A stretch of 64,000 nt of DNA from Chitinophaga pinensis DSM 2588. Its GTDB lineage: Bacteria > Bacteroidota > Bacteroidia > Chitinophagales > Chitinophagaceae. The notes under the pieces were generated by a model. The model was not told the DNA's origin and ran no database searches. It saw only the letters and a list, made by a program, of their open reading frames with translations. The stretch lies in NCBI RefSeq assembly GCF_000024005.1, contig NC_013132.1:8302001-8366000 (forward strand). The letters run 5' to 3'. Numbering within the stretch: position 1 is the stretch's first letter; every line of letters begins with the position of its first letter. Below are positions 21,109-56,897 of this stretch, piece after piece. A program made the position numbers and the translations under genes.

Positions 21109-21182
21109 GGATCAGTAGTTCAGTTGGTTAGAATGCCGCCCTGTCACGGCGGAGGTCGCGGGTTCGAGTCCCGTCTGGTCCG
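21109..21182 (+). tRNA. tRNA-Asp (GTC)
   Basis: Complete cloverleaf: acceptor GGATCAG/CTGGTCC, anticodon arm CCGCC-CTGTCAC-GGCGG with anticodon GTC, T-arm GCGGGTTCGAGTCCCGT and discriminator G. The 3' CCA is not fully encoded (GCA follows). It is identical to the copy at 56821-56894. Confidence 0.97.
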
Positions 21183-21190
21183 CAAGCTTT

Positions 21191-25281: not shown

Positions 25282-27747
25282 TTAGTTAATATGTAATTTG
25301 TCAGCCAAGACTTTCATGTAGAATCCGCCTACAACACTTCTTGCTTTGAAGTTTTCACGGATACCTGTTTCTGAATCGTAGAAATCATTGAGCGGTACAC
25401 GGGATGGCGTCTCTAATGCATGTATATAAAGCGGTTTGATCAATGCTTCAAACTGCTCTTTCTCCGGAGCAAAAGTGGCTGTCCATACAATCCAGTCATT
25501 CTTGGTATAGGATTTACGGCTATCCAGTGGTATACCAAATTTATTACCTTTTGTGAGATAGTACTTTGTCTCTGTGTCATAAACCTTTTGCGGGAACAAA
25601 TTGAGATTTAATACTTTGTCCCATATCAAATTGTATTTCTGGCTCCAGGTATTTTTATTGTCGAATGTCAGCGCATAGTGATCTCCGGCGTCCGCCATCT
25701 CTATCCATTTTGGCACCATGCTTTCAGCAATAGCACGGTATTTCTTCGCTGATTCCTGCTCGCCCAGTTGTTCCGCCATTTGTGCATAACAGCCAATCGC
25801 AACAATTGCTTTAACAGATAAATTGGCATTACGTGCAAGATGACCTGCGAAATCATCTGTACATAGCTGTGTTTTAGGATCCAGACCTTCTTTGGTCAGA
25901 TAATCCACCCAGGTGGTCAGCGTTTGCCAATGTTTTTTAGCGTAGTCTGTATTTTTCTGTGCTTTAGTGATAGCAGCACATAAAATGATCATGTTACCTG
26001 ACTCTTCCACCGGCATAGGTTCGCCGTAAGTCTGACCATTTGCTTTGGGATATGTTCCCAGGTCATGTGCAGCCCATGGATGTGGATATTTACCGGTCTC
26101 ACTGAAGTGGAATATACCTGTTAGCATACCCTGCATCAGTTCCGGGTTATAAATGAGATAAAGCGGTGCAGAAGGATATGTTACATCCACCGTATTAATG
26201 AAACCACCACTATTATTTTCTTTTGACAACCACAGTAATTCACCGTCCGGACTTTTAACCAGGGTATGTGCTGCAATACTCTGACGATAAGCTAATACAC
26301 AGATATGCGCATATTCCTCACCACCTGATTTCAGGGCCGTAGCATATACTTCTTTATCAAAATCACCACATCTTTGCATGACAGCGTTATATTCATTGTC
26401 AGCACTGATCAGCTGCCCTTCCATGGTTTCGTTGCCGGCAGCGTTCCACCAGGGTCTTAAGTTATTATTGAAATACTGAACAGCATAGATCTCGTCGTAC
26501 CCGAGTTCAACAAAACGTTCTACTTTATTACTGCCGACAGTACCAAAAGGAATAACTGTGTTCAGTGATAATGATTTTCCTTCTGTAGCGGATGATGCCG
26601 TTACACCTTTTTTAAAGGTCTCTACCGCATCAGCACCTTTTGTAATATACTGGATGGTCCCCTTATTCTTCTGAGCAGCTACATAAAAGTATCCCCAGTC
26701 GATACGCATATCATCAGCGCCCTTTTCAAGTACGGGCTGATCTTTGGTACCTACCTTTAAAACAGACAGGTTACCTGCATCATAACGTTTTGCAGCAACC
26801 AGCTGAGAAGGCTGATACACCGCAATGTCAGATGATGCGCCTAAGAAGACTTTTACAGCATGTTGCTTCCCATCATTTGCTTTCACTCCATAGGTAATGT
26901 AGGATACGGGCCGGGATAACAATTTCAGATCATTCAGCAAAAGCGGTGAAGTGAATTTGAGTTCCAGATCGATATTACCGGCGGTAAACTCATAGGTGGT
27001 TTGTGTTGCAGCAATATCTACTTTTGTTTGTTGTGCAACCTGGTTTTCACCTAAAGCGCTCTTTTGTTTATCTACCAAACCGAAATCCAGGTAACGTCCT
27101 CCGGCACTATTCGCAAGATGAATGGCAATGGTATTTTGACCTACTTTCAGCATGCTTTTATTAACGGGCAGGTATTTGAAATTACTCGTCCAGCCGGTTG
27201 TTTCATAAATCTTGCTGCCATTAAGGAATACTTCGACATTATCATCATGATTGAGCTTTAACAGCAAATCATTGATACCGGCCACATTCTTCACTGTGAA
27301 ATTCCTCCTAACCCAAATGTTATCGGACTTCCACAATGTTTTCACATTCTTTTCATCATCGCCAAATGGCGCCGGACCAGACTTCCAGTTGGTCGTCTTG
27401 TAATCCTGTGAAGTCCAGCTTGCATCAGGCTGGGTTTCTGTATAACTTACCTCATAAGGCATTTCATCAGCCGCAGCCAATATCGTCTTATATTTTGTTA
27501 CCTCTTTCCCCAAAAAACGATAGACCTTTCCATCTACACTGATCATCCCCAACAACGAATGATCCGCTCCCGTCCAGTGCGTCGTTGTCGAATTGTTTAA
27601 CTGATCTGTATTTGACCAGATACTAAAGTTTGGATTGTGAGTAATCAGTGGATACGCAGGCGCTATTCTTTCCTGTGCCTGAATCTGAGAAGTGTAAAAT
27701 AAACAAGCAAGTACGCTGAGACCTCTTAATCTGTTGAACTTGATCAT
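25282..27747 (-). CDS. Glutaminase A-like secreted protein (DUF4965/DUF5127/DUF1793)
   Basis: An 821-residue exported protein with a signal peptide (1-24, ending QIQAQ). The start YPLITHNPNFSIWSNTDQLN matches the glutaminase A (GtaA-like) family, whose members carry DUF5127, DUF4965 and DUF1793 regions. Residues 105-235 form an inserted jelly-roll like those in glycosidases (APFGDDEKNVKTLWKSDNIW, then HDDNVEVFLNG). The C-terminal helical part (about 450-810) shows the alpha/alpha-barrel-like KAIVAIGCYAQMAEQLG. Enzymatic activity on glutamine has been shown for fungal relatives only; here the substrate is uncertain. Confidence 0.8.
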   Translation of the reverse strand: MIKFNRLRGLSVLACLFYTSQIQAQERIAPAYPLITHNPNFSIWSNTDQLNNSTTTHWTGADHSLLGMISVDGKVYRFLGKEVTKYKTILAAADEMPYEVSYTETQPDASWTSQDYKTTNWKSGPAPFGDDEKNVKTLWKSDNIWVRRNFTVKNVAGINDLLLKLNHDDNVEVFLNGSKIYETTGWTSNFKYLPVNKSMLKVGQNTIAIHLANSAGGRYLDFGLVDKQKSALGENQVAQQTKVDIAATQTTYEFTAGNIDLELKFTSPLLLNDLKLLSRPVSYITYGVKANDGKQHAVKVFLGASSDIAVYQPSQLVAAKRYDAGNLSVLKVGTKDQPVLEKGADDMRIDWGYFYVAAQKNKGTIQYITKGADAVETFKKGVTASSATEGKSLSLNTVIPFGTVGSNKVERFVELGYDEIYAVQYFNNNLRPWWNAAGNETMEGQLISADNEYNAVMQRCGDFDKEVYATALKSGGEEYAHICVLAYRQSIAAHTLVKSPDGELLWLSKENNSGGFINTVDVTYPSAPLYLIYNPELMQGMLTGIFHFSETGKYPHPWAAHDLGTYPKANGQTYGEPMPVEESGNMIILCAAITKAQKNTDYAKKHWQTLTTWVDYLTKEGLDPKTQLCTDDFAGHLARNANLSVKAIVAIGCYAQMAEQLGEQESAKKYRAIAESMVPKWIEMADAGDHYALTFDNKNTWSQKYNLIWDKVLNLNLFPQKVYDTETKYYLTKGNKFGIPLDSRKSYTKNDWIVWTATFAPEKEQFEALIKPLYIHALETPSRVPLNDFYDSETGIRENFKARSVVGGFYMKVLADKLHIN

Positions 27748-27965: not shown

Positions 27966-30806
27966 TTACTCCGTCTTTTTCCCAAATTTCCTGGGGTAAA
28001 AGGCCACTGACAACATAAAATATTGTTGCAATACGTTACTCCTGCTTTCGGAAAGCATGTTCTTATCCCCTGTCACAATAAAGCCCTTATTCTGGTGCAA
28101 CAGATCGAGTGCTGATAAACGCAGTTCCAGATTATTTGCCGGTAACATCCGGTAAGCGGTAGTGGCATTCCATACCAGATATGTATTCGGTTGTGATGTA
28201 GAAGCTGTAATCCTGTTCAGGTTGATGTTACTGCCAACGGTTAATCTCCGGGTACAGGAGACGCGGGTTCCCAGGATGGTCGTCCAGAAATCGCTGCTAT
28301 AGGAATTAGTGCTGATACTACTTGTCTGCTTTGATGCGTAATGATAATAGTACTGCTGCAGTTCAACGATGCAATAATCGCGAAAGGCATAAAACAGTCT
28401 TAACCCACTGTTATTAGTAAAGACCTTTGAGGAATACCAGATATTATTGATACTATTGGGAATCCTGCTAAAATTAAAAGCCGTATTGAATTTTAACTGT
28501 AGCTGGCTCCCTCCTATTTTATAAGCCCGTTGCGCACTCCCGCTGATATTCGCAAAGCGGTAACCATTCACATTAATCGTGTAATGTCGTGTTCGTCCGA
28601 GGCTGTCTGTGATCGTGCTATCGGAGAAATAATGATTGATCGTACCGTATGAAAGAGCCAGTCCATAGCGAAAGTCGTTATTAGACATATAGTTGCTCCT
28701 GCTGTATTCATAGGTGATACTTCTCTTATCAAAAGGTTTTAAGCGATCATTTCCCAATGACAGATAATAAGCCACCGCACTATCTACCAAGGGATACAAC
28801 TGGTTCACATCAGGATAACCTGCTTCCTTTCTGACGTAGAGGTTGTGCGTCTCATGGTAGTGACCGTCATTATAGTGATCATAGGTGACGGCACCCACAG
28901 GAATGAATTTCGCATATCGCCTGGTAAATTGCTGAAACAAGGCGGATGATTTATTCTGCTGATACAGGAATTGTTCTCTGAAAGTGAATTGAATACTCAG
29001 GTGTTTTGTGTACCGGTTGGAAAGAATCTTAACGAATTCCTTCTTTAATTTCAAAGCAGGCAGTTCATTGATGGCTGTAAATGTGCTGTTATTGGTCAGG
29101 TAATTATTGAGCAGGTATTTTCCCGTAGCGCTATCCCTGTCCTGTACCCTGCTCTCTGCATCACGTTTATTGAAGTCCAGGTTATTGCTGGCAGAAAACT
29201 GTATAAAGGACGAACGGTTGAAAAGAAGCCGGAAAAGGTCATCAGCAGCCAGATAGGTTTTATGGTTAACATTATCCTCCTTGTTATCATACCGCCGTTC
29301 TGTTCTTATATAAACGTCACTATCCGCCACGGCAAAGAATGCATTGTTAACCGCGCGTACATTCTGAAGATGTGTGATATCCAGGGTATACTTTGCAGAC
29401 ACTGCCTTATCTCCGGAGCTTGCTTTTTTACCATAATAGTCGTCCCCTACAGAAAAAGAGAGCTGGTGCCTCGACTCGTCATTGGAATTACTGTTAATAT
29501 TGCCGCTTTTCTTTTCTCCTGCAGCGTTAAATATCCCGCTAACATTTTCAATGCTCCCGTTCACTTTTCCATATACCACATCTGCATCTATTACAAAGTT
29601 ATTATGGTCGTTCTTTTTCTTATAATCCAATGCCGCTTTGTGTAAAGACCTGCGCTCATTATTAACGGCGGTATCCAGCTGTAATTGCGAACTTTCATTC
29701 AGCAGATAATTCAGGGTACTGGTATTACTGGCTACAGTGGAATAGTTACTGTTAAAAAAATAGTCGGCATTCAACTGATTTAACTCTTTCGCATTTGGCT
29801 TAAGGCTAAAATCCTTTTTGAACATCCCTCCTATCGCTCCTGGGCGGTTCTCACCCGCGATATTGAAATCCGGCTGGTATTCGATATCTGTCCCGCTGCC
29901 TTTAAAGGTGCTGTTACGCATAATCGTGTTGGCATCCGTAGCAATCTTATTCACATTATTCGCATTCGCTACGATCGCCATCTGGATAGACGGCGTAAAG
30001 GCATTTAAAGCCAAATCCGCCTCATAATGTTTCTCAGGGGCATATCCGGCGGCCACCTTCCCGAAATGCCCGGAATGACGTCCATTCTTGAGTTTAATGT
30101 TGATTTCGGTGATAGAATCGATCTGATTCTTTTTATCCGCATCTACCTGATACACCTGGATCTTCTGAACGGCATCTTTGGAAATATTCTGAATGGCTAT
30201 TTTTGCATCTCCGGAGAAAAATGACTTTCCGTCCACTTTCAGGCTTTTGATCTCCTTGCCGTTGACCGTAATCGTCCCGTCTGCCCATACAATCACTCCC
30301 GGGAGTTTCTTTAACAGGTCTTCCACTACTGCGTTTTTTTCCAGGGCAAAAGCATCTGAGTTAAACTCCAGGGTATCACCATTCATCCTTACCGGTACAA
30401 CAGCTTTGACCACTACTTCCCGTAAGTCAACGGGGTCTTCGGCAGACCGTCTTTCCAGCTGGTAATTTGCCAGAAACGAACCGGCACCCTGGGGTACCAC
30501 CAATGGTGCATACCGCAGCCGATAACCCGTCTGCGAAACAATTACATACAGGTCGGTTACCAGTGGAAGCCCTACAAAATGATAACGACCGAAGTTGTTC
30601 GTCAGCTGATAGGCCAACAACGAGGAATCCTGTTGCCGGTATACGGCAATCGTGGCAGATTTCAAATTGATACGAAAAGCCGAATCCCTGACCACTCCTT
30701 CCACATCCCGGACCCGCGAGGTATCCTGTGCACGCCCCTGTAATGATAACAGGAAGCATACCAGTGATAGTATCCAGCCGATATGTGTACCGGATTTAAA
30801 GGCCAT
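27966..30806 (-). CDS. Outer-membrane beta-barrel (TonB-receptor-like) protein
   Basis: A 946-residue outer-membrane protein: signal peptide (1-26, ending GRAQ), a carboxypeptidase-regulatory-like domain (about 28-115), a plug-like domain (about 120-230, NAVVEDLLKKLPGVIVWADG then VDGKSFFSGDAKIA), and a long barrel (230-946). It belongs to the outer membrane beta-barrel family that resembles TonB-dependent receptors. Its start overlaps the end of the upstream beta-propeller gene by 11 nt, so the two are translationally coupled; it is the last gene of the operon. It may import or present the product made upstream. Confidence 0.85.
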   Translation of the reverse strand: MAFKSGTHIGWILSLVCFLLSLQGRAQDTSRVRDVEGVVRDSAFRINLKSATIAVYRQQDSSLLAYQLTNNFGRYHFVGLPLVTDLYVIVSQTGYRLRYAPLVVPQGAGSFLANYQLERRSAEDPVDLREVVVKAVVPVRMNGDTLEFNSDAFALEKNAVVEDLLKKLPGVIVWADGTITVNGKEIKSLKVDGKSFFSGDAKIAIQNISKDAVQKIQVYQVDADKKNQIDSITEINIKLKNGRHSGHFGKVAAGYAPEKHYEADLALNAFTPSIQMAIVANANNVNKIATDANTIMRNSTFKGSGTDIEYQPDFNIAGENRPGAIGGMFKKDFSLKPNAKELNQLNADYFFNSNYSTVASNTSTLNYLLNESSQLQLDTAVNNERRSLHKAALDYKKKNDHNNFVIDADVVYGKVNGSIENVSGIFNAAGEKKSGNINSNSNDESRHQLSFSVGDDYYGKKASSGDKAVSAKYTLDITHLQNVRAVNNAFFAVADSDVYIRTERRYDNKEDNVNHKTYLAADDLFRLLFNRSSFIQFSASNNLDFNKRDAESRVQDRDSATGKYLLNNYLTNNSTFTAINELPALKLKKEFVKILSNRYTKHLSIQFTFREQFLYQQNKSSALFQQFTRRYAKFIPVGAVTYDHYNDGHYHETHNLYVRKEAGYPDVNQLYPLVDSAVAYYLSLGNDRLKPFDKRSITYEYSRSNYMSNNDFRYGLALSYGTINHYFSDSTITDSLGRTRHYTINVNGYRFANISGSAQRAYKIGGSQLQLKFNTAFNFSRIPNSINNIWYSSKVFTNNSGLRLFYAFRDYCIVELQQYYYHYASKQTSSISTNSYSSDFWTTILGTRVSCTRRLTVGSNINLNRITASTSQPNTYLVWNATTAYRMLPANNLELRLSALDLLHQNKGFIVTGDKNMLSESRSNVLQQYFMLSVAFYPRKFGKKTE

Positions 30807-32052
30807 TTTTCAACTTCATTTCAATAATGACAGGATTTCCTTTGGAGTTCCCTGATGACAGGTATGTCTTTAGTGCCGGGTCAGATTTCCACAATTTCTG
30901 TTTATCTGTTTTAATGGCATTGAACAGCTGAAATGCTGCCACTTCGTTGTATACGTAACCTTTATTAATCGTTCCGATCCCATTGTTGGCAATAGGCAGA
31001 AAATAAGACTGCTTATCCGGTGTAATGGCGTCGAAGGAGTATAAGGTCTGGCTGGTTAATGAATATAAGTAATAGTTTGAAAGGGATACCGTATTGGTCG
31101 CATATTCCAGGAATAACAGCAGATAACTATCGTAGGTACCTACACAACTCACTTTTGTAATAATGCGTTTCCCGCTGAGGTAATAGTCTGTACTATCGAT
31201 ATCGTTAAATACTTTTTTGTTGTTAAACACTTGAGCCTCCGGAACCATGGCAGCAGGGAAGATAAACTGATAGCTGGATACTTTCAGGGAATCGTCTATC
31301 AGCCGCAGCGTGTAGTCCAGGTAACGGCTCCAGGAAGATGCCGTCGCCATAGACGCATTATAGTCAAATCCTCTATAGGCATTCCGCTTTAAGAAACGAT
31401 CATCCGGATCTACAGGAAGTATTCCTCCTGTGATCGTATCGAAATTATGCAGCAGATAAAAATAGCTTGGTTCTTTATAATGCGTTTCCAGTTTACTTTC
31501 CGGGAAGAAATTATTGGAACACAAAAAGGTATTGGCTGATACCGCAAAGAACTGATCACTCAGGCCAGTCGTAAATGCGGGCAAGGCTTGTTTTTTCTTC
31601 ACTTTTCCATCCGCAGCAAATACCACCAGCCAATGACTGTTTTTACGATAGTTATGATATACTACATTGATTTCATCGTTTGTCTTATTCAGCTGGAACC
31701 GGCTCAATACATTGTATTTATCGGCAGTCCAGTCATCGACAGGTAATTCACGGATTTTGCTGATATACTTTCCTTGTTTACTGAAGATATAAATGGCCTT
31801 CGTGTCATAATCGAAAAAAACAAAGTAATTGTCGCTTACCTGCAGGTGACTGATAAATCCGAATATGCTTTCTTTTTTTGTCTCAAGTGGTATATATCTC
31901 ACTGAATCACAGAAATCAGCCACATTACCGCCCATGGCATCCCTCGGACTGACCCTGATGCTGGTGAGTTCCTCTGATCTGTTATTTTGCTGTGCCTGAC
32001 CCTGGTGGATAATACTGAGTGAGAAGATCAGCAGTAACAGACAGGTCTTCAT
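30796..32052 (-). CDS. Six-bladed beta-propeller protein
   Basis: Exported beta-propeller of the Bacteroidota 6-bladed family (DUF5128-like). I use Met18 of the longer frame (32052) because a clean signal peptide, KTCLLLLIFSLSI...GQAQ, starts there; the ATG at 32103 would instead overlap the upstream stop by 4 nt. Motifs: CDSVRYIPLETKKESIFGFI, DYDTKAIYIFSKQGKYISKI and GTINKGYVYNE. It is homologous in layout to the lipoprotein propeller at 34577-35791 in the same operon. Probably faces the outer surface or periplasm and binds a ligand; no enzyme motif is seen. Confidence 0.8.
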   Translation of the reverse strand: MKTCLLLLIFSLSIIHQGQAQQNNRSEELTSIRVSPRDAMGGNVADFCDSVRYIPLETKKESIFGFISHLQVSDNYFVFFDYDTKAIYIFSKQGKYISKIRELPVDDWTADKYNVLSRFQLNKTNDEINVVYHNYRKNSHWLVVFAADGKVKKKQALPAFTTGLSDQFFAVSANTFLCSNNFFPESKLETHYKEPSYFYLLHNFDTITGGILPVDPDDRFLKRNAYRGFDYNASMATASSWSRYLDYTLRLIDDSLKVSSYQFIFPAAMVPEAQVFNNKKVFNDIDSTDYYLSGKRIITKVSCVGTYDSYLLLFLEYATNTVSLSNYYLYSLTSQTLYSFDAITPDKQSYFLPIANNGIGTINKGYVYNEVAAFQLFNAIKTDKQKLWKSDPALKTYLSSGNSKGNPVIIEMKLKNGL

Positions 32053-32099
32053 TCTTCGATTTTTCCGGTTAATAGGACAATCCATGGTAGCTGTGCTGT

Positions 32100-33581
32100 T
32101 CAAGGTTTTAAATTATCATAAAGTAGCATCTTATCACTATATAAGACGGGTTGTATTTCCATTGTCTTATGCAGACCCAGTTGCTTAATCAATTGCGTGG
32201 TGTTATAATCTTTCAGCTTGTCTGGCGTGGCGACCAGCACGATGCGTTTGTTTTTAAAAACGTCTATATTCAAATAATCCAACACAAGGTCCAGCGTATA
32301 GTACCGGATGTTCTTCTCTGCATAAAAATTTTCTTTCACGCCCAGTTCCCATATCGGATCATAAGGATGACAGTTATTTTCAAATATGAGATACACCTCC
32401 TCAGATCTGCATTTGCGATGAATATAATAGGTAAGGTCTTTGTCAGAAGCGCCGGGTAACTTACGGGTTAAGCAGGTTAATGCGACGAGGTTGTAAATAC
32501 CAAAAACAACCATCAGCGACACCGCTCCTTTTGTGGCAAAGAAGCCTTTTTGCTTTTCCAGGAACACAATAACCGTCAGCAACAGATAAGGGATGAAGTG
32601 CATCAATGGGAACATAAACCGGGTTTCCTTATGGGGAACGATCAGGTGTCCGATGATGAAAGGAACGATTATCCAGAGTAGTATGTTTTTGTAATCAATG
32701 CATAAAATTGCTAAGCCCAGCATTGCAAAAACAGCCACTCCCCATCCCATATCAGAGAACAGCATCCACAGGTAACTGAGTACCGTCATTGTACCAAACT
32801 CGGAAGCCCTGTCATGGACAATATTGACAAGAAAATACTGGTAAGCGGCGAATACAAATTTATTGTACAGCCAGCGGTCCGTGAGTACTTCGAGTAACAG
32901 TGGAATAATAAGTATCGAAATGTAAATCAACATCTCCCTGCCCTTCTCTCTCTTTACAAACAGCATCCAACCGATCACGCCCAGCACACAAAATGCAGAC
33001 TGAAAGCGGATCGTGAAAGCCAGTCCCAGAAAAAAGGCACTGGCATATATCAAACGGCGCTGTTTGTCTTTCTCTTTGCTGTAGCCTGCCATTAACAGGG
33101 ATACTGTCATCAGCAGACACATGGCGCTCCAGTTCTCAGCAGAGAAACGTACACTAAGATATGGGAAAAACCATATAAAAAAAGTAGCCAGCAGGAAAAA
33201 CAGCTGGTGTCCATTGCCGGCTGGAACTGACTTAACCGATACTTTATAAAAAAAGTACTTACATGGCAGGATCAGCAGTACGGATAGCAACCTTAATACA
33301 AACGCCAGGATATAGGGATCTTTTATGTTCAGTACATAACAGCTCCTGCATATAAGGAATGCGATAAATGGCTGAATGCCCGACCTGATACCAGCCTGAT
33401 ATTCCCATGCCAGGGTCTTTACATCAGACAATCCCATTTTAAAAAATGCAAATTCGATTATCTGATAATGTTCATCATAGTGGTAGTATCCTTTGCTAAT
33501 CCAGGCAGTGATCCCATATAATAACAGGGCCAATACAGGAATGACTCTGTTTATAAGCCATGGTGGCATTGCGACAGACAT
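32100..33581 (-). CDS. GT22-like integral-membrane mannosyltransferase
   Basis: A 493-residue protein with about ten membrane helices. The first periplasmic loop reads YYHYDEHYQIIEFAFFKMG then LAWEYQAGIRSGIQPFI, which matches the acidic-loop and WEY...RS.I.P pattern of GT22 (Alg9/PIG-B-like) glycosyltransferases that use polyprenyl-phosphate sugars. A C-terminal soluble domain (about 390-493) follows. Its start shares one base with the DUF1573 stop (TAATG), showing coupling. The acceptor may be a protein or glycan of this operon; the sugar is not known. Confidence 0.7.
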   Translation of the reverse strand: MSVAMPPWLINRVIPVLALLLYGITAWISKGYYHYDEHYQIIEFAFFKMGLSDVKTLAWEYQAGIRSGIQPFIAFLICRSCYVLNIKDPYILAFVLRLLSVLLILPCKYFFYKVSVKSVPAGNGHQLFFLLATFFIWFFPYLSVRFSAENWSAMCLLMTVSLLMAGYSKEKDKQRRLIYASAFFLGLAFTIRFQSAFCVLGVIGWMLFVKREKGREMLIYISILIIPLLLEVLTDRWLYNKFVFAAYQYFLVNIVHDRASEFGTMTVLSYLWMLFSDMGWGVAVFAMLGLAILCIDYKNILLWIIVPFIIGHLIVPHKETRFMFPLMHFIPYLLLTVIVFLEKQKGFFATKGAVSLMVVFGIYNLVALTCLTRKLPGASDKDLTYYIHRKCRSEEVYLIFENNCHPYDPIWELGVKENFYAEKNIRYYTLDLVLDYLNIDVFKNKRIVLVATPDKLKDYNTTQLIKQLGLHKTMEIQPVLYSDKMLLYDNLKP

Positions 33582-33967
33582 TATATAAAGCGGCCTCTGA
33601 CAACAATGCCCACCGGTTCTTTCATTTCCTTAAACCGGATGAATGATTTCTTCCTGATCGACCCTTTAGGAGGATTATCCACTTTGTATGTAATGATACC
33701 CTTCTCATTCGGATAAATCACCTTTTCGCGGGGCGATGCTGTAAAGCAGGAGCATTCATTATTAATCTCAAGGATTGTCAGCGGCTCCTTTGAGACGTTG
33801 ATAAACATAATAAGACCTACATAAGGTTTATTGGCAGGTAAATTATTAAAGTTGACTTCCGTCATTAAAAATTTGGCCTTTCCGATTATTTTTGGATCTG
33901 ACTTTTTCTGTGCGGTTACGGCCAGCGACCATAACATCATGAGTAAGCATGTATATAAGGGCTTCAT
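33581..33967 (-). CDS. DUF1573 protein
   Basis: A short exported protein (128 residues) with signal peptide 1-19 (ending AVTAQ) and a single Ig-like DUF1573 domain: LTILEINNECSCFTASPREK, then YPNEKGIITYKVDN and KSFIRF. DUF1573 proteins are frequent in Bacteroidota beside exported small proteins and thioredoxin-like genes; their role is unsettled. It is joined by one-base overlaps to both neighbours, so all three genes are translated as a unit. Two close cysteines (ECSC) may be metal-binding or disulfide-forming. Confidence 0.85.
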   Translation of the reverse strand: MKPLYTCLLMMLWSLAVTAQKKSDPKIIGKAKFLMTEVNFNNLPANKPYVGLIMFINVSKEPLTILEINNECSCFTASPREKVIYPNEKGIITYKVDNPPKGSIRKKSFIRFKEMKEPVGIVVRGRFI

Positions 33968-34584
33968 TAGATCTTTTTTAAGAAATCAGCAATATATTCA
34001 GGTACATCCTTTACCGGGAAGAAAAAACGGTCAGCTTTTAATGCCGGGTCAAGTGTGAAGAGGTAAGGGCTGATCGCACTTTCAGCAGGGAACGGCAGAC
34101 GGCCACAGGTGTAAATACGGCTAGTGAAATTGATTTTCTGAAAATGGAACTTCCGGGCTGCATTGCTGGTAAAATTACCTAATACAACAATCTGTGTCTT
34201 TGCTGTATCGACAGGTATCCGTTTGAATGCGACAAAGATGGAATCAATACAATCGCCACAATATCGATCGTCTATTCTAAGAAAAAGATTGGTCTTGCCT
34301 TCATCTATCAGGGAATAGATATTCATAGAGTCTTTTCCTGACCAGACCATAAAGTCCTGTGGTACCTGCCCTCCGTCGCTAATCCTGGCATTCTCTCCAG
34401 CGGCATGGACCTCGTGGGCCAGGATCTCCTCCCTTGTCAGATTAGCATGGTGATGGTCGTGCATTTTTTCAGCAAAAGGCAGATCTGCCAGTTCGATATT
34501 GTTCGCCCTCATCAGGAGATTAAGGTATAGCAATAAGCCGGCGGACATGACTATTGTCAGAATGAGAATATTACGATTACTCAT
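33967..34584 (-). CDS. Membrane-anchored thioredoxin-like protein
   Basis: A 205-residue protein with an N-terminal anchor (residues 5-24) and a His-rich stretch (EKMHDHHHANL). Residues 98-125 carry TNLFLRIDDRYCGDCIDSIF, with C109-x-x-C112 placed as in thioredoxin-fold proteins. The CGDC pair suggests a periplasmic thiol redox role, perhaps on the six-cysteine protein encoded upstream. The start overlaps the beta-propeller stop by 8 nt. The family is not certain because the fold is inferred from one motif and length. Confidence 0.6.
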   Translation of the reverse strand: MSNRNILILTIVMSAGLLLYLNLLMRANNIELADLPFAEKMHDHHHANLTREEILAHEVHAAGENARISDGGQVPQDFMVWSGKDSMNIYSLIDEGKTNLFLRIDDRYCGDCIDSIFVAFKRIPVDTAKTQIVVLGNFTSNAARKFHFQKINFTSRIYTCGRLPFPAESAISPYLFTLDPALKADRFFFPVKDVPEYIADFLKKI

Positions 34585-35791
34585 GTTTTAACTTTATAAG
34601 TGCCAGCACAACAGTTTCAGGATTCTGAGAGATCTGGTTTAACAGTTCCTTCTTTTTACCGACAATTTTCAAGCTGTCTATTTCCTTCGTTTCACGCATA
34701 ATTTCGAGGTCGTCCAGCATACGTTGGTTATCCACCTGCGTAATAAGTTCATTGCTTGTTATGCAATAGTTCGGACCAGCTGTTACATAAATATTATCAA
34801 AGTCATTCTTGAATCCATTGCCTGATACCGTATGGTCTGTTTTCAAATCGTAATAATAATTCAGGATCCGTCCTCCTTTAACCGTGTATTCACCCAGAAT
34901 AAACCTGTCTGTGATAAGGGGTATTTCATCATTGGCGCAGGAGCTGGACCTGGCTGTCAGGTATTGATCAGGTGTGTGGGCCGTGTAAATGCCACGTCTG
35001 GAATAGTTATTAGAGTTGTAGTCGTAAACAGCGAAGTTCTTCAGAAGATGTTCTTTCGCATCCAGCTGAAGGATGGTATCAATGTAAGGAGATTGAAAAT
35101 AAACTTCGTGACTGGCTGCATTAACGCGGAAATATACACTGGGATTGGGCATCGTAAAATTGGGATTACGAATGGTATTAAACCAACCCTTTACAAATAA
35201 ACCGGTGCTATCCAACAGACACAAACGGTAGTTATGAAAAGGTTCTTCTTTTTCAACACGGTCTATCTCCCGGTAACATAAAAAGCCGTCGTCTATTTTC
35301 TGCACAAATGAAAAGTATCCTTTGGCAAGTTGCATCTTCTGCAGGTATTTTCCATTCTTATCAAAAGAATAAACCTGGTTCTGGTTTGCGCTGTACACAT
35401 ACAGAACACCTTTTTCAGCATCAACAGATACATCTTCGATAGAATATGGCGCTGTCGGAGAATCCAGGTCACGGAATATTTTCGCAAGCTGATTCCCCTG
35501 CTTATCAAATATGTAAATTCCTTTTGAAAGGTTTTTGTCAAAGACTACGATATGATCCTGTAAAGGAAGGATTTTGGTGATCTTGCCGATCAGCTCATTT
35601 GAATCCAGTTTCAGGGATATGTAACCAATCGAGTCTCCGAATTCACTCAATCGCAATCCATCTACGTGCTTGAACGAACTTATCTTTGAATTGGGCCGGA
35701 TGATGGTTCCGTTTTCTTTTGCTTCCTTGCCCGCGCAGGATATTGAGAAGACTGCAAAACAAGCAACGACGAGTATATGCAAACACTTCAT
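34577..35791 (-). CDS. Six-bladed beta-propeller lipoprotein
   Basis: A 404-residue lipoprotein; lipobox FSISCAGK puts the lipidated Cys near residue 20. The propeller shows LRLSEFGDSIGYISLKLDSN, VFDKNLSKGIYIFDKQGNQL and QNQVYSFDKNGKYLQKM, the family signature that recurs in the gene at 30796. A helical tail (about 365-404) ends the protein. It lies directly downstream of the small Ser/Gly-rich protein gene, separated by a hairpin, and overlaps the thioredoxin-like gene. This supports a role in surface display or binding of that small protein. Confidence 0.8.
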   Translation of the reverse strand: MKCLHILVVACFAVFSISCAGKEAKENGTIIRPNSKISSFKHVDGLRLSEFGDSIGYISLKLDSNELIGKITKILPLQDHIVVFDKNLSKGIYIFDKQGNQLAKIFRDLDSPTAPYSIEDVSVDAEKGVLYVYSANQNQVYSFDKNGKYLQKMQLAKGYFSFVQKIDDGFLCYREIDRVEKEEPFHNYRLCLLDSTGLFVKGWFNTIRNPNFTMPNPSVYFRVNAASHEVYFQSPYIDTILQLDAKEHLLKNFAVYDYNSNNYSRRGIYTAHTPDQYLTARSSSCANDEIPLITDRFILGEYTVKGGRILNYYYDLKTDHTVSGNGFKNDFDNIYVTAGPNYCITSNELITQVDNQRMLDDLEIMRETKEIDSLKIVGKKKELLNQISQNPETVVLALIKLKHE

Positions 35792-35834
35792 AGCTATATT
35801 ATATTGGGTAAAGTTCCAGGTATATTTGAGAAGA

Positions 35835-35867
35835 ACGCTTAAGGCATGTTATACATGCCTCAAGCGT
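35835..35867 (-). terminator. Hairpin between small-protein gene and propeller gene
   Basis: ACGCTTAAGGCATG pairs with CATGCCTCAAGCGT (14 bp, one mismatch) around a 5-nt loop. On the minus strand it follows the small-protein stop by 26 nt and is followed only by a weak U-rich stretch, so it may attenuate rather than stop transcription. Confidence 0.65.
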
Positions 35868-35893
35868 ATTAAAGATGTAATAAAGCAGTCAGC

Positions 35894-36349
35894 TTAGTTG
35901 GAAGTACCACCACCTGTACCACCACCGGATTGGGAAGTAGAGCAGGCATAAGCGCTACAATGGTCGCCGCTGTTGCTGGAAGACTTACAGGTATTTTCAA
36001 TACCGGAGAAGCTGTAAGTTTCATAGGAAATGCTACCTCCAGGGCTGGTACCGGCAGAACCGCTTACAGAGATTTTTCTTTTTACAGTACAGGTACAATG
36101 CGATGGATTGTCTCTGTTGTAAGTCGCAGTAGTGATAGTCGCGGTAGGACAAGCTGTAGGAACCGGATCACTACCGGAATCACCACCGCTGCTACCTGAA
36201 GAAGAACCATTGGAAGATCCTGTCTGTGCCAGAACGGATTGGCTCAGATGAATGGTGGGCAAACCATAATCAAGCAGCGCAAGGTGCAGATTGGTGATCA
36301 GCAAAAAGCAAGCTGCCAGAATCGCAAGGTACTTTGTTACTTTTTTCAT
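35894..36349 (-). CDS. Small exported Ser/Gly-rich six-cysteine protein
   Basis: A 151-residue protein of no family I can name with confidence. A hydrophobic export segment (7-35) ends in SQSVLAQ, a long leader reminiscent of NVEALA-type precursors of Bacteroidota. The mature part begins with a Ser/Gly-rich linker (TGSSNGSSSGSSGGDSGSD, 43-61), then a core with six Cys (67, 85, 87, 121, 131, 136), and a Gly-rich tail (SGGGTGGGTSN). Ser/Thr density and paired Cys suit an O-glycosylated, disulfide-bonded secreted peptide. Its neighbours (glycosyltransferases, thioredoxin-like, propellers) fit this reading. Confidence 0.7.
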   Translation of the reverse strand: MKKVTKYLAILAACFLLITNLHLALLDYGLPTIHLSQSVLAQTGSSNGSSSGSSGGDSGSDPVPTACPTATITTATYNRDNPSHCTCTVKRKISVSGSAGTSPGGSISYETYSFSGIENTCKSSSNSGDHCSAYACSTSQSGGGTGGGTSN

Positions 36350-36423
36350 TTTTTGGCTTTATTTGGTTGAGGAATTGTTATCCCGGCGTTGGGTTTATTT
36401 GCCGGAATTAGGTTCTGATAAGG

Positions 36424-37737
36424 TTATTCAAGCTGTTCTACAGGCAGATCTTTTCGATTTTTAAGAATAGTTTTCAGTTCCTTTTTAAGGACGTGTGAGT
36501 TTTCCCATACCTGGACACGTTGATTCGTATACAAACACAGGTAGCCGAAATAAAGCATACATGCCGGCACGATGACCTTTCTGGCATTGCTATACTTTGT
36601 ACTGAATAATAACTGGTAGGCAAAATGAGCGATCAATGCAAATACGGCTACAGAGCTTACATATACATATCTGTCTGCGATGATAGAAAAGCGGGACATG
36701 GGAATGATGTGTAATACCACCAGCAAATTGATAATAAAGAATATTACACCCCATTGCAATATCCGCGATTTTGAATAGCGCATAACGAATATGATCAGCA
36801 AAATAATAGCCAGTGGATATGACCAGTAAATAGGAGACATCTTTTCAGTTACCAGGTTAGGGAACGGATATATATAAGAGAGTTTGATCGGTATTACGCA
36901 TTTAATAAAGTATTCACAGAGCGCGTATCCCCCAAAACAGATACGCTGGTAAAGAGGAAACTGTACTTTCGGTGTCAGCACGCCCTGCATGTTATTAAAC
37001 TGTGACAGGATGGTGATGACGCCAAAGAATACCGTCATCAGCAGAAAAGGAATCTTTTCCCGGAGACGTTTGACAGCCTCTTTTCTTTGATATATAAAAA
37101 AGTCTATCAGGATCAAGGTCAGCGGGAACACAAGCGCCTGTTCCTTTGCCCAGAAGGAGGTAACAAAACACAGCAAGGTTAGAATGAAATAGCTGCGTTT
37201 ATGCTGTTCGGCATATAATAAATAACAGTATAAGCCCAGGAAGTAGAAAAGGCTGTACAGCATTACTTTCGATGCAGAGAGCCATACGACACTTTCTACA
37301 TTGAATGGGTGTATGAGAAAGAGACATATCGTTCCTATTGAGACGAAACGGATTTCTTCTACCGGCACCATGGCTGACATCGTCAGGAATTTCGACATAA
37401 ACTTATATATCACCCATGCATTCAGCAGGTGAACAATAAGGCCCGCTATGTGAAAGGCGATAGAATTGTAGCCGAATGCAGCATATATTAATGTATAGTA
37501 AAACTGATTAACGGGTGAATACTGACCTTCGTAGAAGTCTGTCAATATACTCCTGAAGTTGATCATACTGAAACCGCCTTCAGTATACCAGTTTTGCACA
37601 ACCCACTGGTCATCCCAGTTGGTTTGAAAGTTGAGGCTGCGGATATGCGCATATACGCAAAGGGTCAATAAAGCTAACAGCAGGAATACGAGCTTGTCCT
37701 TCCTGAGATAGCTAATGTACAGGGTATATGTTTTCAT
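36424..37737 (-). CDS. TMTC-like polytopic glycosyltransferase (GT39/GT105-type)
   Basis: A 437-residue membrane protein with about ten helices. The first loop NWDDQWVVQN has the acidic pair of C-type (GT-C) glycosyltransferases. The segment HPFNVESVVWLSASKVML and WAKEQALVFPLTLILID closely follow the TMTC (protein O-mannosyltransferase) pattern. I start at Met (37737) because the 30 residues upstream are unlike a membrane protein start. It is the first gene of the minus-strand operon, 75 nt before the Ser/Gly-rich protein gene. The donor sugar and acceptor are inferred, not shown. Confidence 0.7.
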   Translation of the reverse strand: MKTYTLYISYLRKDKLVFLLLALLTLCVYAHIRSLNFQTNWDDQWVVQNWYTEGGFSMINFRSILTDFYEGQYSPVNQFYYTLIYAAFGYNSIAFHIAGLIVHLLNAWVIYKFMSKFLTMSAMVPVEEIRFVSIGTICLFLIHPFNVESVVWLSASKVMLYSLFYFLGLYCYLLYAEQHKRSYFILTLLCFVTSFWAKEQALVFPLTLILIDFFIYQRKEAVKRLREKIPFLLMTVFFGVITILSQFNNMQGVLTPKVQFPLYQRICFGGYALCEYFIKCVIPIKLSYIYPFPNLVTEKMSPIYWSYPLAIILLIIFVMRYSKSRILQWGVIFFIINLLVVLHIIPMSRFSIIADRYVYVSSVAVFALIAHFAYQLLFSTKYSNARKVIVPACMLYFGYLCLYTNQRVQVWENSHVLKKELKTILKNRKDLPVEQLE

Positions 37738-38170
37738 ACGTTTGGTTGAACGCTTTTCATAATGGCATATGATACCCCCCGTGACTGATAGCCGCGCAAC
37801 GTCCCCCGGGATTTTTACCGGAAACAACAGATCAGGATACTTATACTTTTGTATCAGTACACTTAGGTAACAATAAGTCTTTTGTAGTCTGGAGTCGGGT
37901 TATAAAGGAATGTGTTTTTACATATGGGTATTTAAATGGTATTTGGGCTTTTAGCAATAACAAGTTAAGATAATAACTTAGAAAAAGCAATATCGCTGAA
38001 AAAAAAAGAAAGATTTATTTCAGCGGAGTGTTTAAAACAAAAAAGGTGTCAGCAATGACATCTAGTATAATTATATTGATGGAACTTGTTAGATATTTTT
38101 TACGCGAACTTTCGCCAGCCACTTTTTAGCGTCTTCCAACTTTTCAGACTTTATCAAATCCCCGCAACTC
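37738..38170. other. Intergenic region upstream of the operon
   Basis: AT-rich, no convincing gene. Contains a CGCTGAAA / TTTCAGCG inverted repeat near 37993-38030. On the minus strand, just beyond the oxidoreductase stop, 38089-38165 gives a coding-like stretch (LIKSEKLEDAKKWLAKVRV) with no start codon. Confidence 0.5.
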
Positions 38171-56820: not shown

Positions 56821-56894
56821 GGATCAGTAGTTCAGTTGGTTAGAATGCCGCCCTGTCACGGCGGAGGTCGCGGGTTCGAGTCCCGTCTGGTCCG
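56821..56894 (+). tRNA. tRNA-Asp (GTC), second identical copy
   Basis: All 74 bases equal the copy at 21109-21182, including anticodon GTC and the unencoded CA end. The flanks differ, so this is a separate transcription unit. Confidence 0.97.
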
Positions 56895-56897
56895 CAG

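Follow-up and report, generated by a model that had tools for sequence, protein, structure and literature searches.

Glycocins are O- or S-glycosylated ribosomally synthesized and post-translationally modified peptides (RiPPs), and their gene clusters carry a cytoplasmic, SunS-like family 2 glycosyltransferase (GT2). NVEALA proteins of the Bacteroidales are small, exported and cysteine-containing, with an N-terminal signature, and a general O-glycosylation of proteins exists in Bacteroidota. Animal TMTC1-4 are O-mannosyltransferases of the endoplasmic reticulum (ER) that carry tetratricopeptide repeats (TPR), and bacteria have TPR-bearing TMTC-like proteins. Here we compare with these systems a locus of the soil bacterium Chitinophaga pinensis DSM 2588, analyzed within a window of 64,000 nucleotides (NC_013132.1, positions 8,302,001 to 8,366,000; coordinates below count from the first nucleotide of the window). 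Eight minus-strand genes at 27966-37737 join a small exported protein to two GT-C glycosyltransferases, two beta-propellers, a thioredoxin-fold protein, a DUF1573 protein and an outer-membrane barrel. On balance, and with modest confidence, we favour the reading of the unit as a dedicated cassette through which one abundant small exported protein is made, glycosylated and folded in the cell envelope.

The eight open reading frames (ORFs) are all present where an earlier interpretation of this DNA, hereafter the sequence-only reading, had placed them. Its account of tightly packed junctions holds for the overlaps of 8 nt (34577-34584) and 11 nt (30796-30806) and for the single nucleotides shared at 33967 and at 33581, but the ATGA that it had suspected between the GT22 gene and the second propeller gene is a TTGA. 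ATG starts of the second propeller at 32085 and 32052 leave gaps of about 14 and about 47 nt after the GT22 gene, and the start at 32052 yields the signal-peptide-like sequence MKTCLLLLIFS. The small gene is flanked by gaps of 74 and 102 nt.

Of 79 Chitinophaga genomes searched with a profile, 21 carry the short TMTC-like gene, in 22 copies altogether. At least 72 of 394 genomes of the family and at least 29 of 395 of the phylum also matched, mostly with longer proteins outside the genus; both tallies are lower bounds with up to four candidates scored per genome. When the window TMTC-like protein was the lone query, genome contigs gave no match, and it was an alignment query that found the loci. 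Among 35 named TMTC-like loci across Bacteroidota are those of Pedobacter, Mucilaginibacter, Chryseobacterium, Algoriphagus, Arenibacter, Tannerellaceae, Muribaculaceae and Cyclobacteriaceae, and the core of TMTC-like enzyme, small protein and DUF5128 propeller recurs in Pedobacter, Mucilaginibacter, Algoriphagus and Bacteroidales. Searching with the CxxC (thioredoxin-fold) protein gave matches in 16 of the 79 Chitinophaga genomes, that of the window included, and the 20-kb neighbourhoods of these matches hold the same genes in varying combinations. The sequence-only reading had staked itself on conservation of the neighbourhood, and it is conserved in relatives.

We removed 12 duplicates from 62 TMTC-like matches longer than 300 amino acids (aa), leaving out a 100-aa fragment in L092, to obtain 50 loci (L and G numbers are our labels for loci and genomes); related loci are not independent in this or any later count. 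Within 8 kb of the short TMTC-like gene, the 50 loci carry a DUF5128 propeller in 34 cases, a small protein in 27, GT22 in 22, the CxxC protein in 20, GT2 in 13, a resistance-nodulation-division (RND) pump in 12, an RND adaptor in 10 and a barrel in eight. The 20 control loci, which centre on TMTC-like genes with TPR, were hand-picked from the long matches and include two shorter than 13 kb; they have no propeller, small protein, CxxC, GT22 or RND gene, and one GT2 and one barrel. First-stage thresholds were E ≤ 1e-3 for the cassette profiles and E ≤ 1e-5 for the controls; at matched thresholds, propeller, small protein, GT22 and CxxC were found in 33, 25, 22 and 20 of the 50 loci (E ≤ 1e-5), and the controls stayed at zero at E ≤ 1e-3. 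The absence of cassette partners from all 20 control loci rules out chance clustering, and the eight-gene minus-strand unit is real.

A reverse test, which avoids the bias of anchoring on one gene, took the small-protein profile and the GT22 model PF03901 over the 79 whole Chitinophaga genomes. The small-protein profile (E ≤ 1e-3) gave 16 matches in 16 genomes, all among the 21 that bear the TMTC-like gene and all beside that gene (gaps of 86-524 bp in 15 and of 6.0 kb in one). PF03901 (E ≤ 1e-10) gave 12 matches in 12 genomes, all TMTC-bearing, at gaps of 0.2-7.5 kb. The small exported protein is linked to the two glycosyltransferases more strongly than could be known to the sequence-only reading. 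Hypergeometric probabilities of co-occurrence with the TMTC-like gene are 9e-13 for the small protein and 6e-9 for GT22, uncorrected for shared ancestry. The GT22 model is independent of the cassette, whereas the small-protein profile, drawn mostly from members next to TMTC-like genes, may miss unlike small proteins. Five TMTC-bearing genomes gave no small-protein match (G151, G153, G163, G177 and G200), and three of these (loci L036, L033 and L047) carry a different protein that looks small and exported by eye. Viral contigs searched with GT22 yielded no relative.

The small exported protein (35894-36349, minus strand) has 151 aa, with a signal sequence, a leader-like segment, a Ser/Gly tract and six cysteines after the signal sequence. 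About 20 residues from the start, the family shares the segment K-x2-G-I...A-L-x2-N-L-Q-Y-A-x3-Y-[GD]-I, after which its members diverge. The anchor pattern fits 17 of 21 non-redundant rows; columns 0-4 of the resulting leader table are conditioned on it, and positions +8 to +10 (Y, [GD] and [IL]), which lie outside the anchor, are each kept in 13 of the 17 rows. The window protein reads N-L-H-L-A...Y-G-L...L-A-Q where the family has N-L-Q-Y-A...Y-G-I; it does not fit the anchor and hence is absent from the table. The number of cysteines in the mature part is even in 24 of 25 small proteins, as expected of disulfide-bonded proteins; these are related sequences and not independent cases. Two of the 27 TMTC-small protein pairs (L073 and L075), in which the matches are membrane segments, were left out of the cysteine and hairpin counts. 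Searching a large protein database with the small-protein alignment returned only eight proteins among 8000 scored candidates, so the breadth of the family is drawn from the genome searches.

Between the small gene and the propeller gene lies an RNA hairpin (35835-35867, minus strand; 15 bp with a loop of 3) of -24.7 kcal/mol, with a z-score of -5.4 and none of 200 dinucleotide shuffles as stable. Hairpins below -14 kcal/mol, differing in sequence, follow 22 of 25 small genes, compared with seven of 25 TMTC-like genes and 33 of 147 ORF ends elsewhere, a background not checked as genes; the multi-locus shuffles kept single-base composition only. Such hairpins also follow 9/16 TMTC-less small genes and 7/11 others in TMTC loci. 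The hairpin likely stabilizes the message or partly terminates transcription there, through which the small protein would be made in excess.

The TPR-less TMTC-like enzyme (36424-37737, minus strand) has 437 aa when read from the ATG at 37737, its ORF being open to a TTG at 37827. Its predicted fold and its motifs make it a GT-C membrane glycosyltransferase. The second enzyme (32100-33581, minus strand) is an Alg9-like GT-C glycosyltransferase of family GT22 (PF03901, 8.4e-29, 101.4 bits against a cut-off of 23.8). The sequence-only reading had called both membrane proteins GT-C-like, a view now backed by predicted structure for the first and by Pfam for the second. No Pfam match reached the cut-off for the TMTC-like, small exported, CxxC or barrel proteins of the window, and searches of PDB sequences with the TMTC-like and barrel profiles gave no match. 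Residues D42 and D43, an acidic motif near the start that by analogy would lie in the first outer loop, are invariant among 36 aligned TMTC-like sequences. A DD string occurs in the first 110 residues of 49 of the 50 short proteins, and KE[QT] and [ED]RxxY, counted anywhere in the protein, in 45 and 48. These three strings resemble motifs M1, M4 and M7 of the human TMTCs, which have been assigned to dolichol phosphate mannose (DPM) and metal sites (PMC7801869). The signature Q-[YF]-x-P-x-N is present in 48 of the 50 short proteins versus none of 20 long ones, and a FastTree phylogeny puts 49 of the 50 short proteins in one clade (support 0.95) and L057 with the long proteins.

A Ser/Thr tract, defined as at least half of a 20-residue window, is found at TMTC loci in eight of nine small-protein clusters with GT22 versus four of 16 without (Mann-Whitney U test, p 0.008, post hoc). 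The exception, L047, has GT22 and no tract; its GT22 match is split over two neighbouring ORFs (1473-2958), as if broken, about 7 kb away from the TMTC-like gene.

The gene after the hairpin encodes the core partner, a 6-bladed beta-propeller lipoprotein (DUF5128; 34577-35791, minus strand; PF17170, 2.7e-21, 76.5 bits against a cut-off of 22.9), and 16 of 19 propellers directly downstream of the small gene have a lipobox-like pattern. It is followed by the CxxC protein (33967-34584, minus strand), with a predicted thioredoxin fold and an N-terminal hydrophobic helix. The CGDC motif that the sequence-only reading had pointed out occupies residues 109-112, and both cysteines are invariant in 19 aligned sequences; family matches come only through some relatives (2/19 and 1/19 aligned). 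The predicted fold, the CxxC motif and the N-terminal membrane helix together are those of the ResA/TlpA type, and the nearest folds to the predicted structure are DsbE/ResA-like; the protein may be a reductase or an oxidase.

An exported DUF1573 protein (33581-33967, minus strand; PF07610, 4.6e-10) is a variable accessory. Of the 21 Chitinophaga genomes with the TMTC-like gene, three have DUF1573 at the cassette, two of these within one ORF with the CxxC domain; the labels of an iterated DUF1573 profile, which drifted onto CxxC proteins, are not DUF1573 counts. We therefore do not uphold DUF1573 as a core part. The second 6-bladed propeller (30796-32052, minus strand; PF17170, 5.4e-15, 55.8 bits against 22.9; ORF open to a TTG at 32103) and the outer-membrane barrel with a CarboxypepD-like N-terminus (27966-30806, minus strand) form an optional module, the barrel being present in eight of the 50 loci counted above. 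Family matches of the barrel come via aligned relatives: among 13 aligned barrels that include the window's own, itself unmatched, CarbopepD_reg_2 is found in 11, OMP_b-brl_3 in eight and Plug in one. A propeller gene adjoins the barrel gene, by eye, in 12 of 13 distinct barrel-bearing loci (not in L023). Immediately beyond the barrel gene, in the downstream direction and on the same strand, lies the gene of a glutaminase A-like protein (25282-27747; GtaA_6_Hairpin, DUF5127 and DUF4964).

Genes of the GT2 and GtrA types usually supply polyprenyl-phosphate sugars. Two GT2 proteins that were scanned match Pfam Glycos_transf_2 (5.6e-22 and 2.5e-34; "DPM1-like" is our own label for GT2), and in five loci (L079, L081, L083, L085 and L089) the GT2 gene shares 3 to 22 bases with the TMTC-like gene. 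A GtrA profile matches two of the 50 loci (L052 and L065), and Pfam confirmed GtrA in L052 and also in L076, where it is fused to GT22. This gene context suggests a polyprenyl-phosphate sugar donor for the TMTC-like enzyme. Around the window cassette, no GT2-profile match was found within 8 kb and none among the eight cassette and two downstream proteins scanned, so the donor would here be supplied from elsewhere.

The dedicated-cassette reading is built on results of computation, namely the linkage, the GT-C fold and motifs, the thioredoxin fold, the leader and the hairpin. The small protein would leave the cytoplasm through Sec with its conserved N-terminal segment attached, and would be the acceptor, as its linkage, its leader and the correlation of GT22 with the tract suggest. 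A periplasmic TMTC-like GT-C, here joined by GT22, may then move sugar from a polyprenyl-phosphate donor, most likely to the Ser/Thr/Gly tract after the leader, while the CxxC protein would handle the disulfides of the small protein. The lipoprotein propeller, as the constant partner, is probably a chaperone, receptor or anchor, and the second propeller with the barrel, or the RND pump in other genomes, may be an exchangeable outer-membrane step. The hairpin would keep the product in excess of its machinery. The sequence-only reading is thus supported in part; the oxidation by the CxxC protein and the display or re-import by the barrel that it also proposed may take place. The sugar, the direction of disulfide chemistry, the effect of the hairpin on expression and the roles of propellers and barrel are what we infer from these parts. 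More tentatively, and with real doubt, one could envisage a phylum-wide, leader-guided periplasmic class, in which the TPR-less TMTC-like GT-C recognizes N-L-Q-Y-A...Y-G-I and sugar-coats the Ser/Thr tract, GT22 extends the glycan or adds sugars, and the mature domain is exchanged, giving a glyco-RiPP-like product made outside the cytoplasm.

Several observations weigh against the cassette reading. Ser/Thr richness differs little between the 36 small proteins with and the 16 without a short TMTC-like gene (p 0.067 overall, 0.016 for the best S+T window and 0.10 for the S+T+G window; all uncorrected). The rule that a short TMTC-like gene predicts a Ser/Thr-rich small protein is accordingly weak, and only its GT22 version, found after looking, holds. 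W/Y-rich small proteins with two cysteines beside the enzyme (L058 and L060-L063) have no strong Ser/Thr tract (0.25-0.45). Among the 20 long relatives, KE[QT] occurs in four, but DD and [ED]RxxY occur in 19 each and hence do not set the clade apart. The GT2 excess, 13 of 50 versus one of 20 controls, is not significant alone (p 0.054). In the stretch covered, none of the propeller, small protein and CxxC genes is found in 12 of the 50 loci, some of which are cut by contig ends; the six that do not belong to the variant described below are L038, L052, L053, L057, L081 and L084. Genome G006 has a poly-Ser small protein and a propeller with no short TMTC-like gene, at a locus that also encodes a signal peptidase, GT2 and proteins that look polytopic. 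Finally, a variant at seven of the 50 loci (L068, L073, L074, L075, L077, L078 and L080, from Mucilaginibacter, Pedobacter and Chryseobacterium) has no small protein. It combines GT22, an apparently polytopic protein and the short TMTC-like enzyme with an apparently exported protein of 400-520 aa that we call LIPO410, the single scanned member of which has no Pfam match. These loci imply that the enzyme may have other acceptors.

The LIPO410 variant keeps alive the main rival, which is that the GT-C enzymes put their sugars on a different envelope molecule (the propellers, the barrel or a glycolipid, the last as with ArnT) and that the small protein is a partner, for example a carbohydrate-binding or adhesive factor that this cassette also delivers. 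Because the leader-bearing small protein occurs only beside the short TMTC-like gene in the 79 genomes, and because the Ser/Thr tract tracks GT22, we consider this rival unlikely. We are also doubtful that the small protein is a glycosylated bacteriocin or toxin-like peptide, a released antagonist modified by the GT-C enzymes, with the propeller lipoprotein as immunity or docking protein. The patchy distribution (21 of 79 genomes), the fast-diverging mature part with its cysteine pattern, and the RND pumps and adaptors of some loci would suit such a product. However, no Pfam or NCBIfam family, those of bacteriocins among them, reached its cut-off with the small protein of the window, the glycosyltransferase of glycocins is cytoplasmic, and carbohydrate-binding module (CBM) domains in the wider cassette suggest binding over killing. 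That neighbouring genes of a variable glycan island were merely transferred together, without serving a shared product, would explain patchy presence and reassorting gene content but is highly improbable given the overlapping genes, their recurrence across the phylum and the single clade that keeps the same partners, which no control has.

Small proteins of related cassettes that lack the TMTC-like gene have CBM_1 or CBM_14 domains or short Cys-rich sequences. Two of them, at L022:7183-7584 and L034:11385-11786, carry the fungal-type cellulose-binding CBM_1 (4.9e-12 and 7.3e-14), and in Chitinophaga genomes these genes adjoin DUF5128 propeller, CxxC and RND-type genes; two proteins near 7102-7989 of L025 resemble them by appearance. 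Upstream of a propeller/CxxC pair, L027:6771-7262 encodes a small exported protein with CBM_14, the animal-type chitin-binding peritrophin-A domain (7.2e-16). At L143:6485-8061, in a cassette without the TMTC-like gene, a signal peptidase gene (PF10502, 5.4e-35) lies directly upstream of that for a small exported protein with poly-Ser; GT2 and three apparently polytopic proteins without a Pfam match are encoded there too. Elsewhere in the window, two tRNA-Asp (gtc) genes with equal Rfam scores lie 35.7 kb apart on the same strand (21109-21183 and 56821-56895).

If the cassette reading is correct, Bacteroidota would have a dedicated protein-glycosylation route, separate from the general O-glycosylation of the phylum, whose genes for a GT-C enzyme, for the acceptor and at times for donor enzymes lie together. 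The compact, testable enzyme-acceptor pair would help to show how protein acceptors are chosen by an enzyme of the GT-C class, and DUF5128 propellers, DUF1573 and neighbouring CxxC proteins, which have no function in Pfam, would gain a working context. We found no description of the cassette combination in the open-licence literature searched; on DUF1573 with propellers it yielded a transcriptome paper with gene lists. The parts belong to known families, while the clade, the leader and the linkage appear to be undescribed in the literature searched.

Compared with known systems, the small proteins of the cassette appear to resemble NVEALA proteins in being small, exported and cysteine-containing with an N-terminal signature. 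PF14055, the NVEALA model, matched neither the window protein nor 10 other small proteins (six of TMTC loci and four of TMTC-less cassettes), and we do not assign them to that family. Among 198 phylum genomes no PF14055 match exceeded the cut-off, which means that the family was hardly sampled, and the 3-kb loci of two sub-threshold matches hold no cassette gene. Glycocins show a similar arrangement, a small Cys-containing peptide beside a glycosyltransferase. The cassette differs in its polytopic GT-C enzymes, whose site of action should be extracytoplasmic, and in a Sec-type signal; no ABC exporter was found among the ten window proteins scanned. Glycocin membership was likewise rejected, there being no cytoplasmic GT2 in the window cluster, though GT2 is present at some related loci. 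Within the GT-C class, the short enzyme has 6-13% sequence identity to PMT, ArnT and Stt3. Placement in the TMTC family proper was rejected on the TPR and DUF1736/DW features, though KE[TQ] and [ED]RxxY are present: 36 short members gave no Pfam match to TPR, which all four scanned long controls match, or to DUF1736, and a DW string occurs in only 11 of the 50 short proteins. The GT-C fold is common to TMTC1-4, the TPR-bearing bacterial proteins and the short enzymes, and the short enzymes stand apart from the other two in having neither TPR nor DUF1736, in a signature of their own and in their linkage to a small exported protein.

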